Source: Natrarchaeobius halalkaliphilus | GTDB taxonomy: Archaea; Halobacteriota; Halobacteria; Halobacteriales; Natrialbaceae | DNA: 64,000 bases | Reading direction: 5' to 3' | NCBI RefSeq assembly: GCF_003841485.1 | Contig: NZ_REFY01000003.1 | Coordinates: 124,001-188,000, forward strand | Shown here: piece after piece, positions 4,666 through 61,144 of the stretch | How the letters are laid out: every line of letters starts with the position of its first letter | Numbering within the stretch: the first letter of the stretch is position 1 | Made by a program: the position numbers and the translations under genes | The notes under the pieces: generated by a model | Told to the model about the DNA's origin: nothing | Seen by the model: only the letters and a program-made list of their open reading frames with translations | Databases searched by the model: none

Positions 4666-7161
4666 ATGAGCGAACGGTCCGGATCTTCTGAAGCGGCGTT
4701 CTGGGGAGATGCGGACGACACCGAGGCCCTCGGGCACTACCGTTCCCTGATCGACTCGATCGACGCCGGAATCTACCGACTCGACGCAGACGGCCGCCTC
4801 CTCTCGGTCAACGACCGCATCGTCGAGATAACCGGGTTCGCGCGCGAACGGTTGCTCGGCGAGCACGTGTCGGTGCTCTTCGGCAGGGACAGTGAGACGA
4901 TCGAACGCGAGATCGACCGCCTCCGAGCGACCCCCTCCGACGACAGCCGGTTACTCGATCTCACCGTGGAGACCGCCGACAGCGAACAGATTCGCTGTGA
5001 ACTGCGGGTGAACGTACTCCGGTCGGATGATACCGTACAGGAAACGGTCGGTATCGTCCGCGAAACTGGCGGACGTCGACGGAGGAAACCGGAAGCCACC
5101 GAAGCGACCTTCCGCCGACTGTTCGAGAACGTGCCCGGAAACTATCTGATCGTACAGCCCGGAGGGTACGAAATCGTGGCCGTGAGCGACGCGTATCTCG
5201 ACGCGACGATGACCGAGCGATCGGAGATCCTGGGTAAGACGTTGTTCGAGATCTTTCCGAACAACCCAGACGACCCGGCCGATGGCGTCGAGAACCTCCG
5301 TGAGTCGCTCGAGAGGGTAGCGGAGTCCGGGGAACCGGACACCATGCCGGTGACGCACTATCCGATTCCCGACCGCGGAACCGGTGGCGGTGAGCCGAGC
5401 GAAGCGAGGCGATCCCCATCGGGCGAGCGCACCGAGTTCGGCGGCGAAGAGTTCGAAGAGCGGTGGTGGAATCCGATCAATTCGCCGGTGTTCGACCCGA
5501 CTGGCAAAATCGACTACATCGTCCACAGCGTCGAGGACATCACTCCAATCGTCCAGGAACTTCAGGCAGAGGACGAACAGGAGCTGTTACACGCTCCCGA
5601 CACGTCGGATTCACAGCTCGTATCGGGGTCGAATTCACAGCTCGCATCTGACATCGCGCTGCGCGGACAGGAGTTACTACAGCAGGCGAAACAAAGCGCG
5701 TACGAACAACTGCACGAGAGCGAAGAGCGCTTTCGCGCGTTGGTCACCACCACGTCGGATGCGGTGTTCAGCACGAACGCGGACTGGAGCGAGATGCACA
5801 GGTTAGAGGGATCTGATTTCCTCGCTGACACCGACGAGGAAGGGCCGTCGTGGGTTGAAAAATACGTACCCCCCGATGACCGGCCGCGCGTTCAGCGAAC
5901 TATCGACGAAGCCATTCGTGCGAAACGCAGCTTCGAGTTGGAACACCGGATCGTTCGTGAAGACGGCACAGCAGCCTGGATCGTCTTGCGCGCCACACCG
6001 CTCCTGAACGAGGACGGCGAAATCACTCGATGGTTGGGCGCGGCGAACGACGTGACCGAACGGGTCGAACGCGAGCGATATCTCGAGGATGCGAAAGAGC
6101 GACTGGAAGCGGCGACAGAAGCCGGCGCTGTCGGGACCTGGGAGTGGCACATTCCCGAAGACCGGCTGGTCACGGGCGTGTCGTTCGCCAAGAAGTTCGG
6201 GATCGATCCCGACGCGGCCTCGGAGGGCGTGTCGTTCGACCGGTTCGCCTCGGCCATCCACGACGACGACCGCGAGCGGGTCGAACGCGAGATCGAGGCC
6301 GCCATCGAATCGGGTGAGGAGTACGAAGAAGAGTACCGCGTCTGGGACGACGACGACGAACTCCGGTGGGTCGTCGCGCGCGGTCACGTCGAGTACGATG
6401 ACGGAAACCCGACAACCTTCCCCGGTGCCCTGGCCGATATCACCGAGCGAAAGCGGTTCGAGCGCCGACTCGAGGAATCCAACAAGCGCCTCGAACAGTT
6501 CGCGTACGCCGCCTCACACGACCTCCAAGAGCCCCTGCGGATGGTCACGAGCTATCTCCAGTTGATCGAGCGCCGCTACGCGGATGAGCTCGACGAAGAC
6601 GGTGAGGAGTTCATCCAGTTCGCCACCGACGGTGCCGACCGGATGCGCGAGATGATCGAGGGACTGCTCGAGTACTCGCGGATCGAAACGCGCGGCGATC
6701 CCTTCGAGCAGATCGATCTAGACGCCGTTCTGGCGGACGTTCGCCGGGATCTTCAGGTGAGAATCGAAGAGAGCGATGCCGAGATTACGGCCGAGCCGCT
6801 GCCCCACGTCGAGGCTGATCCGGGACAGGTACGTCAGGTATTCCAGAACCTGCTTTCTAACGCGATCGAGTACAGTACCGATCCGCCACGGATAGACGTT
6901 TCCGCTGTGCGGAACGGTTCGGAGGTGACCGTCTCGGTCGCCGACGAGGGAACTGGTATCGATCCGGACGACAGGGAGCGCGTCTTCGAAGTGTTCCAGA
7001 GCCTACACGCCCAGAACGAGCACTCGGGAACGGGGATCGGCCTCGCGCTCTGTAAACGTATCGTCGAGCGCCACGGCGGTACCATCTGGGTCGAACCCGA
7101 ACCGGGCGAAGGCGCGACCGTCTCGTTTACGCTCCCTGCTGCAAGCGGTGACGAGACGTGA
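4666..7161 (+). CDS. soluble multi-PAS sensor histidine kinase
   Basis: An 831-residue cytoplasmic kinase without membrane segments. Four PAS-type sensor modules follow one another: about residues 20-135 (SLIDSIDAGIYRLDADGRLL), 145-300 (divergent, with FEIFPNNPDD), 350-470 and 475-595 (WEWHIPEDRL). Next come a HisKA dimerisation domain with phospho-acceptor ASHDLQEPLRMV at ~605-670 and a HATPase_c domain with N box (FQNLLSNAIEY), G1 (DEGTGIDP) and G2 (GTGIGLALC). ATG 4666 is chosen because the frame upstream is not acidic. No response regulator is adjacent, as is usual in haloarchaea, so the ligand and output are unknown. The kinase core closely resembles the one at 50832-52031. Confidence 0.93.
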   Translation: MSERSGSSEAAFWGDADDTEALGHYRSLIDSIDAGIYRLDADGRLLSVNDRIVEITGFARERLLGEHVSVLFGRDSETIEREIDRLRATPSDDSRLLDLTVETADSEQIRCELRVNVLRSDDTVQETVGIVRETGGRRRRKPEATEATFRRLFENVPGNYLIVQPGGYEIVAVSDAYLDATMTERSEILGKTLFEIFPNNPDDPADGVENLRESLERVAESGEPDTMPVTHYPIPDRGTGGGEPSEARRSPSGERTEFGGEEFEERWWNPINSPVFDPTGKIDYIVHSVEDITPIVQELQAEDEQELLHAPDTSDSQLVSGSNSQLASDIALRGQELLQQAKQSAYEQLHESEERFRALVTTTSDAVFSTNADWSEMHRLEGSDFLADTDEEGPSWVEKYVPPDDRPRVQRTIDEAIRAKRSFELEHRIVREDGTAAWIVLRATPLLNEDGEITRWLGAANDVTERVERERYLEDAKERLEAATEAGAVGTWEWHIPEDRLVTGVSFAKKFGIDPDAASEGVSFDRFASAIHDDDRERVEREIEAAIESGEEYEEEYRVWDDDDELRWVVARGHVEYDDGNPTTFPGALADITERKRFERRLEESNKRLEQFAYAASHDLQEPLRMVTSYLQLIERRYADELDEDGEEFIQFATDGADRMREMIEGLLEYSRIETRGDPFEQIDLDAVLADVRRDLQVRIEESDAEITAEPLPHVEADPGQVRQVFQNLLSNAIEYSTDPPRIDVSAVRNGSEVTVSVADEGTGIDPDDRERVFEVFQSLHAQNEHSGTGIGLALCKRIVERHGGTIWVEPEPGEGATVSFTLPAASGDET

Positions 7162-36610: not shown

Positions 36611-36696
36611 TCATACGGTCTACTGTAAGTCGTTACCGGGGCGACCGCGAGCCTTCCTGCGGTCGCTCCGGTAAAAAGTCACAGCAAACCGTATGA
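36611..36696. repeat. palindromic element, copy A
   Basis: 86 bases with ends TCATACGGT and ACCGTATGA, arms of 38 bases that pair at ~30 positions, an inner perfect stem GCGACCGC/GCGGTCGC and a 10-base loop GAGCCTTCCT. Its minus strand carries a T5 tract. The element provides the last residues (SYGLL) and stop of the frame at 36679-36897. Three other copies occur in this window (45627, 59017, 61059). Confidence 0.85.
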
Positions 36697-45428: not shown

Positions 45429-45629
45429 ATGGCAACGACTAATGACGTCTCAAACGGGATGACCGAACCGTGTGAGGTGTGTGAGAGAGACACCTTACAC
45501 GACGTTAGCGTTCAACTCGTTACGGAGGGTGGCGAAGGGAAAAACGCACGGTACTCGAGAGAGCCCTACCGGGTCCGGGAGTGTCTTCGCTGTGGGAATC
45601 GCGACAGCCAGCGAATGAACAACGCCTGA
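45429..45629 (+). CDS. 66-residue zinc-finger protein
   Basis: MATTNDVSNGMTEPCEVCE starts the protein; a second pair occurs in RECLRCGNRD, separated by ~35 residues with HDVSVQLVTEGG between. This Cys-pair pattern is a conserved small haloarchaeal zinc-finger family. The last codons (RMNNA) run into palindromic element B, whose first bases supply the TGA stop. A TATA box is upstream. Confidence 0.75.
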   Translation: MATTNDVSNGMTEPCEVCERDTLHDVSVQLVTEGGEGKNARYSREPYRVRECLRCGNRDSQRMNNA

Positions 45630-45711
45630 TACGGACCGTTGTGAGTCGTTACCGGTGCAACCGCGACCATCCTACGGTTGCACCGATAAATCGTCGCAAC
45701 AGACCGTATGA
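45627..45711. repeat. palindromic element, copy B
   Basis: 85 bases, ends TGATACGG and CCGTATGA. The most diverged copy: the inner stem reads GCAACCGC/ACGGTTGC instead of GCGACCGC/GCGGTCGC, and the next pair is T-A, so pairing is kept by compensatory change. The loop is GACCATCCT. Its first TGA is the stop codon of the upstream zinc-finger gene. It separates that gene from the convergent membrane protein at 45865. Confidence 0.8.
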
Positions 45712-45864
45712 GACGGTCCACTGTGCCGACGTGGTGGTACAATCGCGGACGGCCGCGGATCCGCTGAAACTAATGGACTGGAGTCCGCTCGAGTCGGGAT
45801 GCTGCTTTCTCCACCGGGATCGAGTCGTCCGCGACTCGTTTCGACGGCAACTATCGGTAACCGA

Positions 45865-50831: not shown

Positions 50832-52031
50832 TCACGGCGGCTGTGACGGTGATCCACTCACGGAGCGGTGGCGGCTCACCGCCGATAACGAAAACGATAC
50901 GGTCGTGCCACGACCGAGGGCTGAGTCGATCCAGATTTCACCGCCGTGACGCTCGACGATGCGGCTACAGAGTGCGAGTCCGATCCCGGTACCGGGGTGT
51001 TCCTCGTGGCTGTGGAGTCGCTGGAAAACCTCGAATATCCGCTCCTGGTCGGCCGGGTCGATGCCGATCCCGTGGTCCCGAACCGAGAGGATCCACCGGT
51101 CACCGCTGGGGTCGTCGGTCCGTTCTCGCTCGGCGCTGATCTCGATTCTGGGTCGGTCGTCTCCGCTGTATTCCATCGCGTTCGACAGGAGGTTCTGGAA
51201 GAGTTGGCGCAGTTGGCTCCGATCCCCGTCGACGCGTGGCAACTCGTCGACGGCGATCTGGGCACCGGTCTCTTCGATCCGGACGACCATATCCTCGCGA
51301 ACGTCCGAAACGACCTCGGAGAGATCGACCGGTTCGAACTCCTCTCCCCGCGTATCGACCCGAGAATACTCGAGAAGTGCGTCGATCATCCTCGTCATCC
51401 GTTCAGCGCCGTCGATCGCGTACTCGAGGAACTCTTCGCCGTCTTCGTCGAGATCGTCACGGTAGCGGTTCTCGATGAGGTGAAGGTAGCGCGAAACCAT
51501 CCGGAGCGGTTCCTGTAGATCGTGCGACGCTGCCGAGGCGAACTGCTCTAGGCGCTCGTTCGACGCCGAAAGTTCCTCCCGCGTCTTCTCTAGCCTCCGA
51601 TTCTGGCGCTCGAGTTCGAGTGCACGCGTGTTGGCTTTCGCATCGTAGACGCCGACGCCGAAGCCAGCGACGCTGCTGAACCCGGTCAGGATCGAGACGG
51701 ATCGAACGGGATCGGAGAGTTCGACGGTCGGCTGAACGTGATAGAGAACGAGGATGAGGCTCATCACGACGATCCCGCCGAGACACCACCGAGCGATAGT
51801 CGCGTAAAACCGCCGGTCAATATCCGTCCGGGACAATCGGTATCCACCGAGACACAACACGGCTCCGGAGCCGCCGATAAAGGCGGAAATGACGAGGACG
51901 CTAGAGTGTGGCGTCGCGGTCGGGAGCTGTCGGAATCCCCAGACGACCGCGACTACGATGTAGAATACACCGAGGACGAAGATTACGGTCCGACCGTCGA
52001 TTACGGATCCGAAGCGGTTCGTCTGCGCCAT
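50832..52031 (-). CDS. membrane sensor histidine kinase
   Basis: A 399-residue kinase with four membrane helices at ~14-140 (TVIFVLGVFYIVVAVVWGF; VLVISAFIGGSGAVLCLGG; and two more), a short coiled region (LELERQNRRLEKTREEL), a HisKA domain with ASHDLQEPLRMVSRYL and a HATPase with FQNLLSNAMEY, DHGIGIDPADQ, and GTGIGLALCSRIVERHGG. The core is very close to that of the multi-PAS kinase at 4666, so they are recent relatives with different sensors. No response regulator is adjacent. Confidence 0.93.
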   Translation of the reverse strand: MAQTNRFGSVIDGRTVIFVLGVFYIVVAVVWGFRQLPTATPHSSVLVISAFIGGSGAVLCLGGYRLSRTDIDRRFYATIARWCLGGIVVMSLILVLYHVQPTVELSDPVRSVSILTGFSSVAGFGVGVYDAKANTRALELERQNRRLEKTREELSASNERLEQFASAASHDLQEPLRMVSRYLHLIENRYRDDLDEDGEEFLEYAIDGAERMTRMIDALLEYSRVDTRGEEFEPVDLSEVVSDVREDMVVRIEETGAQIAVDELPRVDGDRSQLRQLFQNLLSNAMEYSGDDRPRIEISAERERTDDPSGDRWILSVRDHGIGIDPADQERIFEVFQRLHSHEEHPGTGIGLALCSRIVERHGGEIWIDSALGRGTTVSFSLSAVSRHRSVSGSPSQPP

Positions 52032-59016: not shown

Positions 59017-59102
59017 TGATACGGTCTACTGTAAGTCGTTACCGGAGCGACCGCAGGACGGCTCGCGGTCGCCCCGGTAAAAAGTCACAGCAAACCGTAT
59101 GA
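59017..59102. repeat. palindromic element, copy C
   Basis: 86 bases: TGATACGGTCTACTGTAAG on the left, CACAGCAAACCGTATGA on the right, inner stem GCGACCGC/GCGGTCGC, loop AGGACGGCTC. The arms are oriented as in copies A and B, but the loop is the reverse of copy A. It lies between the start of the heme gene and the 3' end of the gene at 59228; a T5 tract reads on the minus strand, that is, downstream of the latter gene. Confidence 0.85.
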
Positions 59103-61058: not shown

Positions 61059-61144
61059 TCATACGGTTTGCTGTGACTTTTTACCCGAGCGACCGCAGGA
61101 CGGCTCGCGGTCGCTCCGGTAACGACTTACAGTAGACCGTATCA
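61059..61144. repeat. palindromic element, copy D
   Basis: 86 bases, ends TCATACGGT and ACCGTATCA. The arms are those of copy C turned around, but the loop (AGGACGGCTC) reads as in copy C, so loop and arms are flipped relative to each other. The T5 tract reads on the plus strand, downstream of the PadR gene. It separates the PadR and acyl-CoA dehydrogenase genes, which converge. Confidence 0.85.

Follow-up and report, generated by a model that had tools for sequence, protein, structure and literature searches.

The SMR-A and SMR-B elements of Haloquadratum walsbyi are haloarchaeal repeats of about 80-110 bp, present in up to 54 copies, with inverted ends, a target preference (SMR-A targets IS605-type elements and their relics) and no known mobilising enzyme; they reportedly cause no target duplication (PMC3119063). 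REPs measure 20-40 bp, and those of the GTAG class are palindromic and intergenic and may give a neighbouring gene its stop codon (PMC3733652). Replication template switching offers a precedent of another sort. Loop inversion is one of its reported patterns, both sides of a base pair can be written in one event, and in rRNA genes loop inversions are more frequent than in simulation, as are multiple paired changes, but single paired changes are not (PMC8794818).

There are also MITEs, which are short and non-coding, have terminal inverted repeats and a target-site duplication, lie in many near-identical copies and leave element-free sites in relatives. Plastid palindromes reportedly undergo inversions too, the loop or the hairpin being turned between complementary arms. 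REPs are not known to make a target duplication.

The repeat considered here has four copies, A to D, in the window, a stretch of 64,000 nucleotides of the Natrarchaeobius halalkaliphilus genome (contig NZ_REFY01000003.1, positions 124,001 to 188,000). Copy B and its surroundings, and the other three copies, lie as follows.

45429..45629, + strand: DUF7835 gene, 66 amino acids (Pfam PF25205, positions 1-66 of 66, E 1.9e-29); copy B is inserted at its stop codon
45627..45629, + strand: left copy of the 3-bp target duplication (TGA), which is the stop codon of the DUF7835 gene
45630..45708, + strand: element body of copy B, a palindromic mobile element (TACGG...CCGTA), with 28 further places in its own genome at E < 1e-8
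45652..45664, + strand: left arm of the inner hairpin of copy B, CCGGTGCAACCGC
45665..45673, + strand: apical loop of copy B, GACCATCCT, in the 'forward' orientation (GA...CCT)
45674..45686, + strand: right arm of the inner hairpin of copy B, ACGGTTGCACCGA
45709..45711, + strand: right copy of the target duplication of copy B (TGA)
36611..36696, + strand: copy A, flanking triplets TCA / TGA (centre base unequal)
59017..59102, + strand: copy C, TGA / TGA duplication, inner hairpin inverted, loop AGGACGGCTC
61059..61144, - strand: copy D, TGA / TGA duplication, loop GAGCCGTCCT

The original prediction was that paired changes in copy B keep its inner stem together and so point to selection on the folded form. 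The letters are as it gave them: A, C and D have GCGACCGC with GCGGTCGC, and B has GCAACCGC with ACGGTTGC. At pair 31-52 of the family numbering (45659 and 45679 in the window) both sides are indeed altered, from G-C to A-T. An adjacent mismatch (28-55; 45656 and 45682) was said to become T-A in B, which is true with respect to A (G.T) and C (A.C) and untrue with respect to D, where the pair is already A-T. The stem itself is for the most part paired, at 11 of 13 inner positions by Watson-Crick pairs, but the innermost pair is lost (C45664 opposite A45674) and a second mismatch, C.A, stands at the outer end of the arms (45652/45686). Taken as single-stranded DNA, a 90-nt stretch at copy B folds at z = -4.9, and 45627-45711 as a whole is a quasi-palindrome.

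Two other features of the window may be recorded here. The right flank of copy B, 45709-45735 (TGAGACGGTCCACTGTG), looks like an eroded left end of the element and may be what is left of an older copy. A region at about 50880-51620, within a gene taken from its translation as a sensor kinase, has about 35 matches at 67-74% identity across four genomes of the genus, which points to a large paralogous family.

The repeat is a non-coding quasi-palindrome of about 80 bp with at least 120 copies in its own genome (3.51 Mb in 12 contigs). A sequence-only model, R1, built on 41 copies, finds at least 105 distinct places there, and the 436 kb that make up the regions around the best matches contain 117 non-overlapping copies, 111 of them near full length; later stretches add three. 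Matches extend to 22 of 41 genomes of the order, that is, to 20 of 25 within the family and 2 of 16 outside it, and many genomes of the family have at least about 103 matches each, both strands counted. Eight plasmid records match copy D, every one from genera of Natrialbaceae. The genus-mates compared were Natrarchaeobius chitinivorans AArcht7 (G001) and AArcht4 (G003) and Natrialba swarupiae (G002); copies from G019, G004 and G024 are the best 30 loci of each genome, some of them one place on both strands. A search of open-licence PMC text did not find the repeat described.

Chance similarity is ruled out by the matches within the genome, by the statistics of the duplication and by the controls on covariation, the last two given below. 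Carriage by viruses or phages was considered as well, and rejected: the strict element pattern has no match in viral contigs, and copy D as query has none in phage records.

Terminal inverted repeats are present, the ATACGG and CCGTAT tips being paired in 94% of cells, and on either side lies one copy of a 3-bp target duplication of the form T-S-A. The two triplets agree in their centre base in 100 of 104 own copies (the other eight of 112 were left out, both ends not being recognised), where 2000 shuffles reach a mean of 50 and a maximum of 66. The triplets beside the tips in these 104 are TCA/TCA in 47 cases, TGA/TGA in 41 and TTA/TTA in one. In other genomes, among near-full-length copies with both ends, agreement at the centre base holds in 102 of 115, with about 55 expected by chance. 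Beyond the triplet the context is itself palindromic, approximately CGWC-TSA-GWCG, and resembles the element's own tips, CCGTA-TSA-TACGG.

In G001, G019 and G004 unequal triplets are commonly TGA/CGA and TCG/TCA, as if the side that forms the stop codon were retained while a single transition wore down the other. There are also pairs of copies that abut with a single TSA between them (C2:601021-601209, C7:147708-147897 and C2:403860-404046), as if the ends of one element served as targets for another; in a further pair, at C3:552939-553139, about ten bases intervene.

Empty sites are found as well. For 19 own copies both flanks could be found in a relative, and at 17 of these the orthologous place has no recognised element; the copies include two pairs of neighbours, each pair sharing a gap, and the compared flanks are about 70-90% identical, so that few junctions align to the base. 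At the remaining two a diverged element lies nearby. The sister species are so far apart that few orthologous sites are shared at which evolution in place could be followed.

In these respects the repeat is like a MITE: it is short and non-coding, with inverted ends, a target duplication, many near-identical copies and element-free sites in relatives. It resembles the SMRs (PMC3119063) in being haloarchaeal, in size, in its inverted ends and target preference, and in having no known mobilising enzyme. It is unlike them in its TSA duplication and its preference for gene ends, and identity with the Haloquadratum SMRs was rejected on the ground that the ends of SMRs come without a duplication.

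One property that sets the repeat apart from MITEs is a strong preference for stop codons. The duplicated triplet is the TGA stop codon of a gene in 51 of 104 own copies, as judged by a home-made gene caller with codon scores trained on the same genome; the caller missed the short DUF7835 gene, so copy B is not among the 51. Of the free non-coding TSA sites, 8% are stop codons, a share that rises to 21% under weighting by a target profile learned from these same sites, both values being built on the regions around copies. Against 21%, the excess has a binomial p of 4e-10. In other genomes 67 of 115 copies lie at stops (15/29, 16/28, 13/23, 12/22 and 11/13 by genome), the site nulls above being those of the own genome. 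Public annotation of plasmids gives a similar picture: of the eight matches six are usable, and in four of those six an annotated CDS ends at the element, two of the four being the orthologous glyA locus, where one stop is now TAA. Since the duplication lands on TGA, the stop of the host gene stays intact.

Within the window, only copy B lies at a stop codon. Orthologues of its DUF7835 gene, 80-91% identical, occur in four relatives. Two of these (L099 and L102) have the same TGA stop and no element, and a third (L098) has what appears to be a piece of a decayed element. In N. swarupiae (L100, about 6458-6548) the stop codon that B occupies has an element with a different arm sequence and a reversed loop; either this one codon was hit more than once or the copy is old and shared.

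Do the arms of the family covary? In an alignment of 41 copies two-sided changes occur at 9 of 20 pairs, a number that none of 500 shuffles reaches and that compares with 2-5 in slid controls. A sterner test imitated R-scape, with simulations that keep the tree and an exponential fit to the tail. By that test no pair reaches E < 0.05 over all pairs with the 106 alignable copies of the own genome (6 of 112 were left out as poorly alignable), nor with 180 copies (3 of 34 rows left out), although conditioned on structure the larger of the two sets brings pairs 28-55, 32-51 and 31-52 to 0.001-0.006. With 249 copies pair 28-55 attains E = 0.0004 over 3081 pairs. The pair on which the original prediction chiefly rested, 31-52, has E = 0.03 conditioned on structure and E = 2.5 over all pairs, and 32-51 has 0.03 conditioned on structure only. 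The larger set thus bears out covariation at 28-55 outright and at 31-52 only within the structure. The arms of the family covary, and therefore its palindromic form is conserved more than its letters.

Ten of the top 40 column pairs among the 249 copies lie on the axis of the palindrome. The second-best of all, 38-45, is an odd one: most copies have G..T or A..C there, and a Watson-Crick pair is found in only 29 of 249. Its covariation reads as a by-product of flips of the hairpin.

Such flips are seen in 38 recent copies, whose outer arms are nearly identical and whose inner hairpin stands in one orientation in 15 and in the reverse in 23. Of the window copies, C has the flipped hairpin, unlike A and D. 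Both orientations are found in further subfamilies also: GACCCGGGCG and CGCCCGGGTC; GACCCGTCT and AGACGGGTC (the latter in one copy); and those with CGTATCC arms. Trees built without the loop, on 72 columns and with only those copies whose loop pair is GT or AC (86 of 106 in the own genome and 168 of 249 in all), have disjoint clades with support of at least 0.9 that contain both orientations, four in the own genome and seven in all. In the recent copies pair 28-55 is A.C in nine of the flipped kind and the mirror-image G.T in one of the other kind, which is what turning of the arms together with the loop would produce, the second number being small. The same turning of a loop or hairpin between complementary arms, with paired changes possible in one event, is reported for rRNA hairpins (PMC8794818). 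Here it is repeated within a mobile family, with both forms in many copies, which is unlike the inversions of rRNA genes and plastids.

The original prediction can be made specific by supposing that the repeat is a functional 3'-UTR hairpin, a terminator or a stabiliser of mRNA, whose RNA fold is selected in place. About half of the copies begin exactly at a stop codon, as such a hairpin would, and the arms covary. If the fold were formed in RNA, G.U should be favoured over A.C, and it is not: inner-stem mismatches in the own genome are G.T in 49 cases and A.C in 40, the 13 inner pairs summed over 249 copies give 133 and 150, and stop-located copies read in the mRNA sense have 19 G.U and 28 A.C. 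These near-equal numbers speak against RNA folding. The element lies on the same strand as the gene in 19 cases and on the opposite strand in 32, and the loop is likewise of mixed orientation relative to the gene (10 vs 8). The corresponding sites of sister species are mostly free of the element, and an Rfam scan of the window at gathering thresholds returned a single tRNA and no other RNA family, leaving the repeat without a named match. The recent copies cut both ways. Their arms, with 28-55 left out, differ at 15 of 912 site-copies, a rate close to that of the outer parts (28 of 1292, p 0.44) and below that of the loop (18 of 380, p 0.003), yet of the 14 arm pairs that have changed, 13 have changed on one side and one on both. 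The pair left out is A-T in 24 of the 38, one-sided in 10 (A.C in nine and G.T in one), G-C by change of both sides in three and C.A in one. In the glyA orthologues of two Haloterrigena, pair 31-52 is A.C in one and A-T in the other, a one-sided difference with no flip. The mismatches, the mixed strands and the recent copies argue against the maintenance of an RNA fold site by site, and I regard the 3'-UTR hairpin as unlikely. The slower change of arms than of loop, and the three G-C copies, leave room for some constraint in place, and the diverged elements at two of the 19 sites, together with the element of N. swarupiae, could also mean that an old shared element is evolving under constraint. 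That the arms of the family covary is upheld; the further step to selection on the folded form is not firmly established, and the evidence weighs against an RNA fold being kept.

If the fold is not kept as RNA, might the palindrome be kept with no selection whatever? Template switching alone would pair the arms and flip the hairpin, and it has in its favour the recurrent flips, the nine and one at 28-55 and the loop inversions and multiple paired changes reported for rRNA genes (PMC8794818). It does not explain why the outer arms, palindromic in plan, are paired in 64% of cells and the inner arms in 91%, so that something must favour the inner ones in particular, nor why most changes along branches in the inner stem are one-sided (282 from Watson-Crick to mismatch vs 26 two-sided with the pair kept, in 249 copies). 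As a sufficient account it is possible, on balance doubtful. It is far less probable that the repeat is a REP of the kind mobilised by RAYTs. The repeat is palindromic and intergenic and has more than 100 copies, and GTAG REPs likewise supply stop codons to flanking genes (PMC3733652). At about 80 bp it is longer than the 20-40 bp of a REP; it has terminal inverted repeats and a 3-bp target duplication; and genes for Y1 transposases do not track it. G001 has at least 103 matches and no Y1 gene, while G009, G012 and G014 have a Y1 gene and no matches. The REP/RAYT system was rejected on the unit length, the duplication and this mismatch in distribution. A folded recombination site like the attC of integrons was a further candidate considered. 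As it happens, Y1 transposase genes with identical scores lie at both ends of contig C2 (C2:78-434 and C2:665088-665444), which suggests that the contig breaks in a repeated insertion sequence.

If not a Y1 transposase, what moves the element? An autonomous partner in the own genome should share its arms, and all 81 matches to a left-arm pattern fell inside called copies, one of them partial; a mirrored search of the same genome added, among places unique to it, two in copies and one lone arm. This lone left arm, at C3:483228 (L188), is outside any called copy and has no matching right end within the 3.7 kb beyond it. None of the six PF01609 transposase loci of the own genome has convincing element ends. 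Two of them have tip-like octamers and equal TCA triplets around the gene, and their arms agree at only 7-8 of 25 positions. Since no transposon with shared ends was identified among the PF01609 loci of the own genome, the repeat is here called MITE-like and not a MITE of a named family. It differs from a MITE as well in being nearly a complete palindrome, with its hairpin found in both orientations.

I propose, with a probability of roughly 0.72, that copy B is a MITE-like mobile element with a preference for stop codons, and that its paired changes reflect the copy from which it came, not an RNA structure kept at the locus. Those changes separate subfamilies of the element and do not imply an origin at copy B. 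A putative transposase or recombinase, acting in trans, would cut and join at T-S-A. Stop codons would persist as insertion targets because a gene has few other T-S-A sites where an insertion does no damage. The complementarity of the arms may be kept because only palindromic source copies propagate, their DNA being bound or folded by the enzyme. Replication template switching, I infer, would from time to time rewrite one arm from the other and sometimes flip the whole hairpin, and a copy once inserted would mostly decay thereafter.

A bolder version is conceivable, though unlikely: that a putative haloarchaeal recombinase moves the elements as folded hairpins and reads TGA stops through the CGWC-TSA-GWCG site, which is like the ends of the element, the flip then being a product of mobilisation. 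If this were so, the duplicated TGA would make stop codons self-repairing safe harbours.

For the mobile, MITE-like element that I prefer, the lesson is that covariation within a mobile palindrome does not by itself prove selection for an RNA fold, since flips and template switching can yield covariation too. An abundant repeat lands on genes without breaking them, by falling on a stop codon that the duplication restores. With so many copies in so many species, both the rule by which it chooses its targets and the rate at which its hairpin flips are directly testable.
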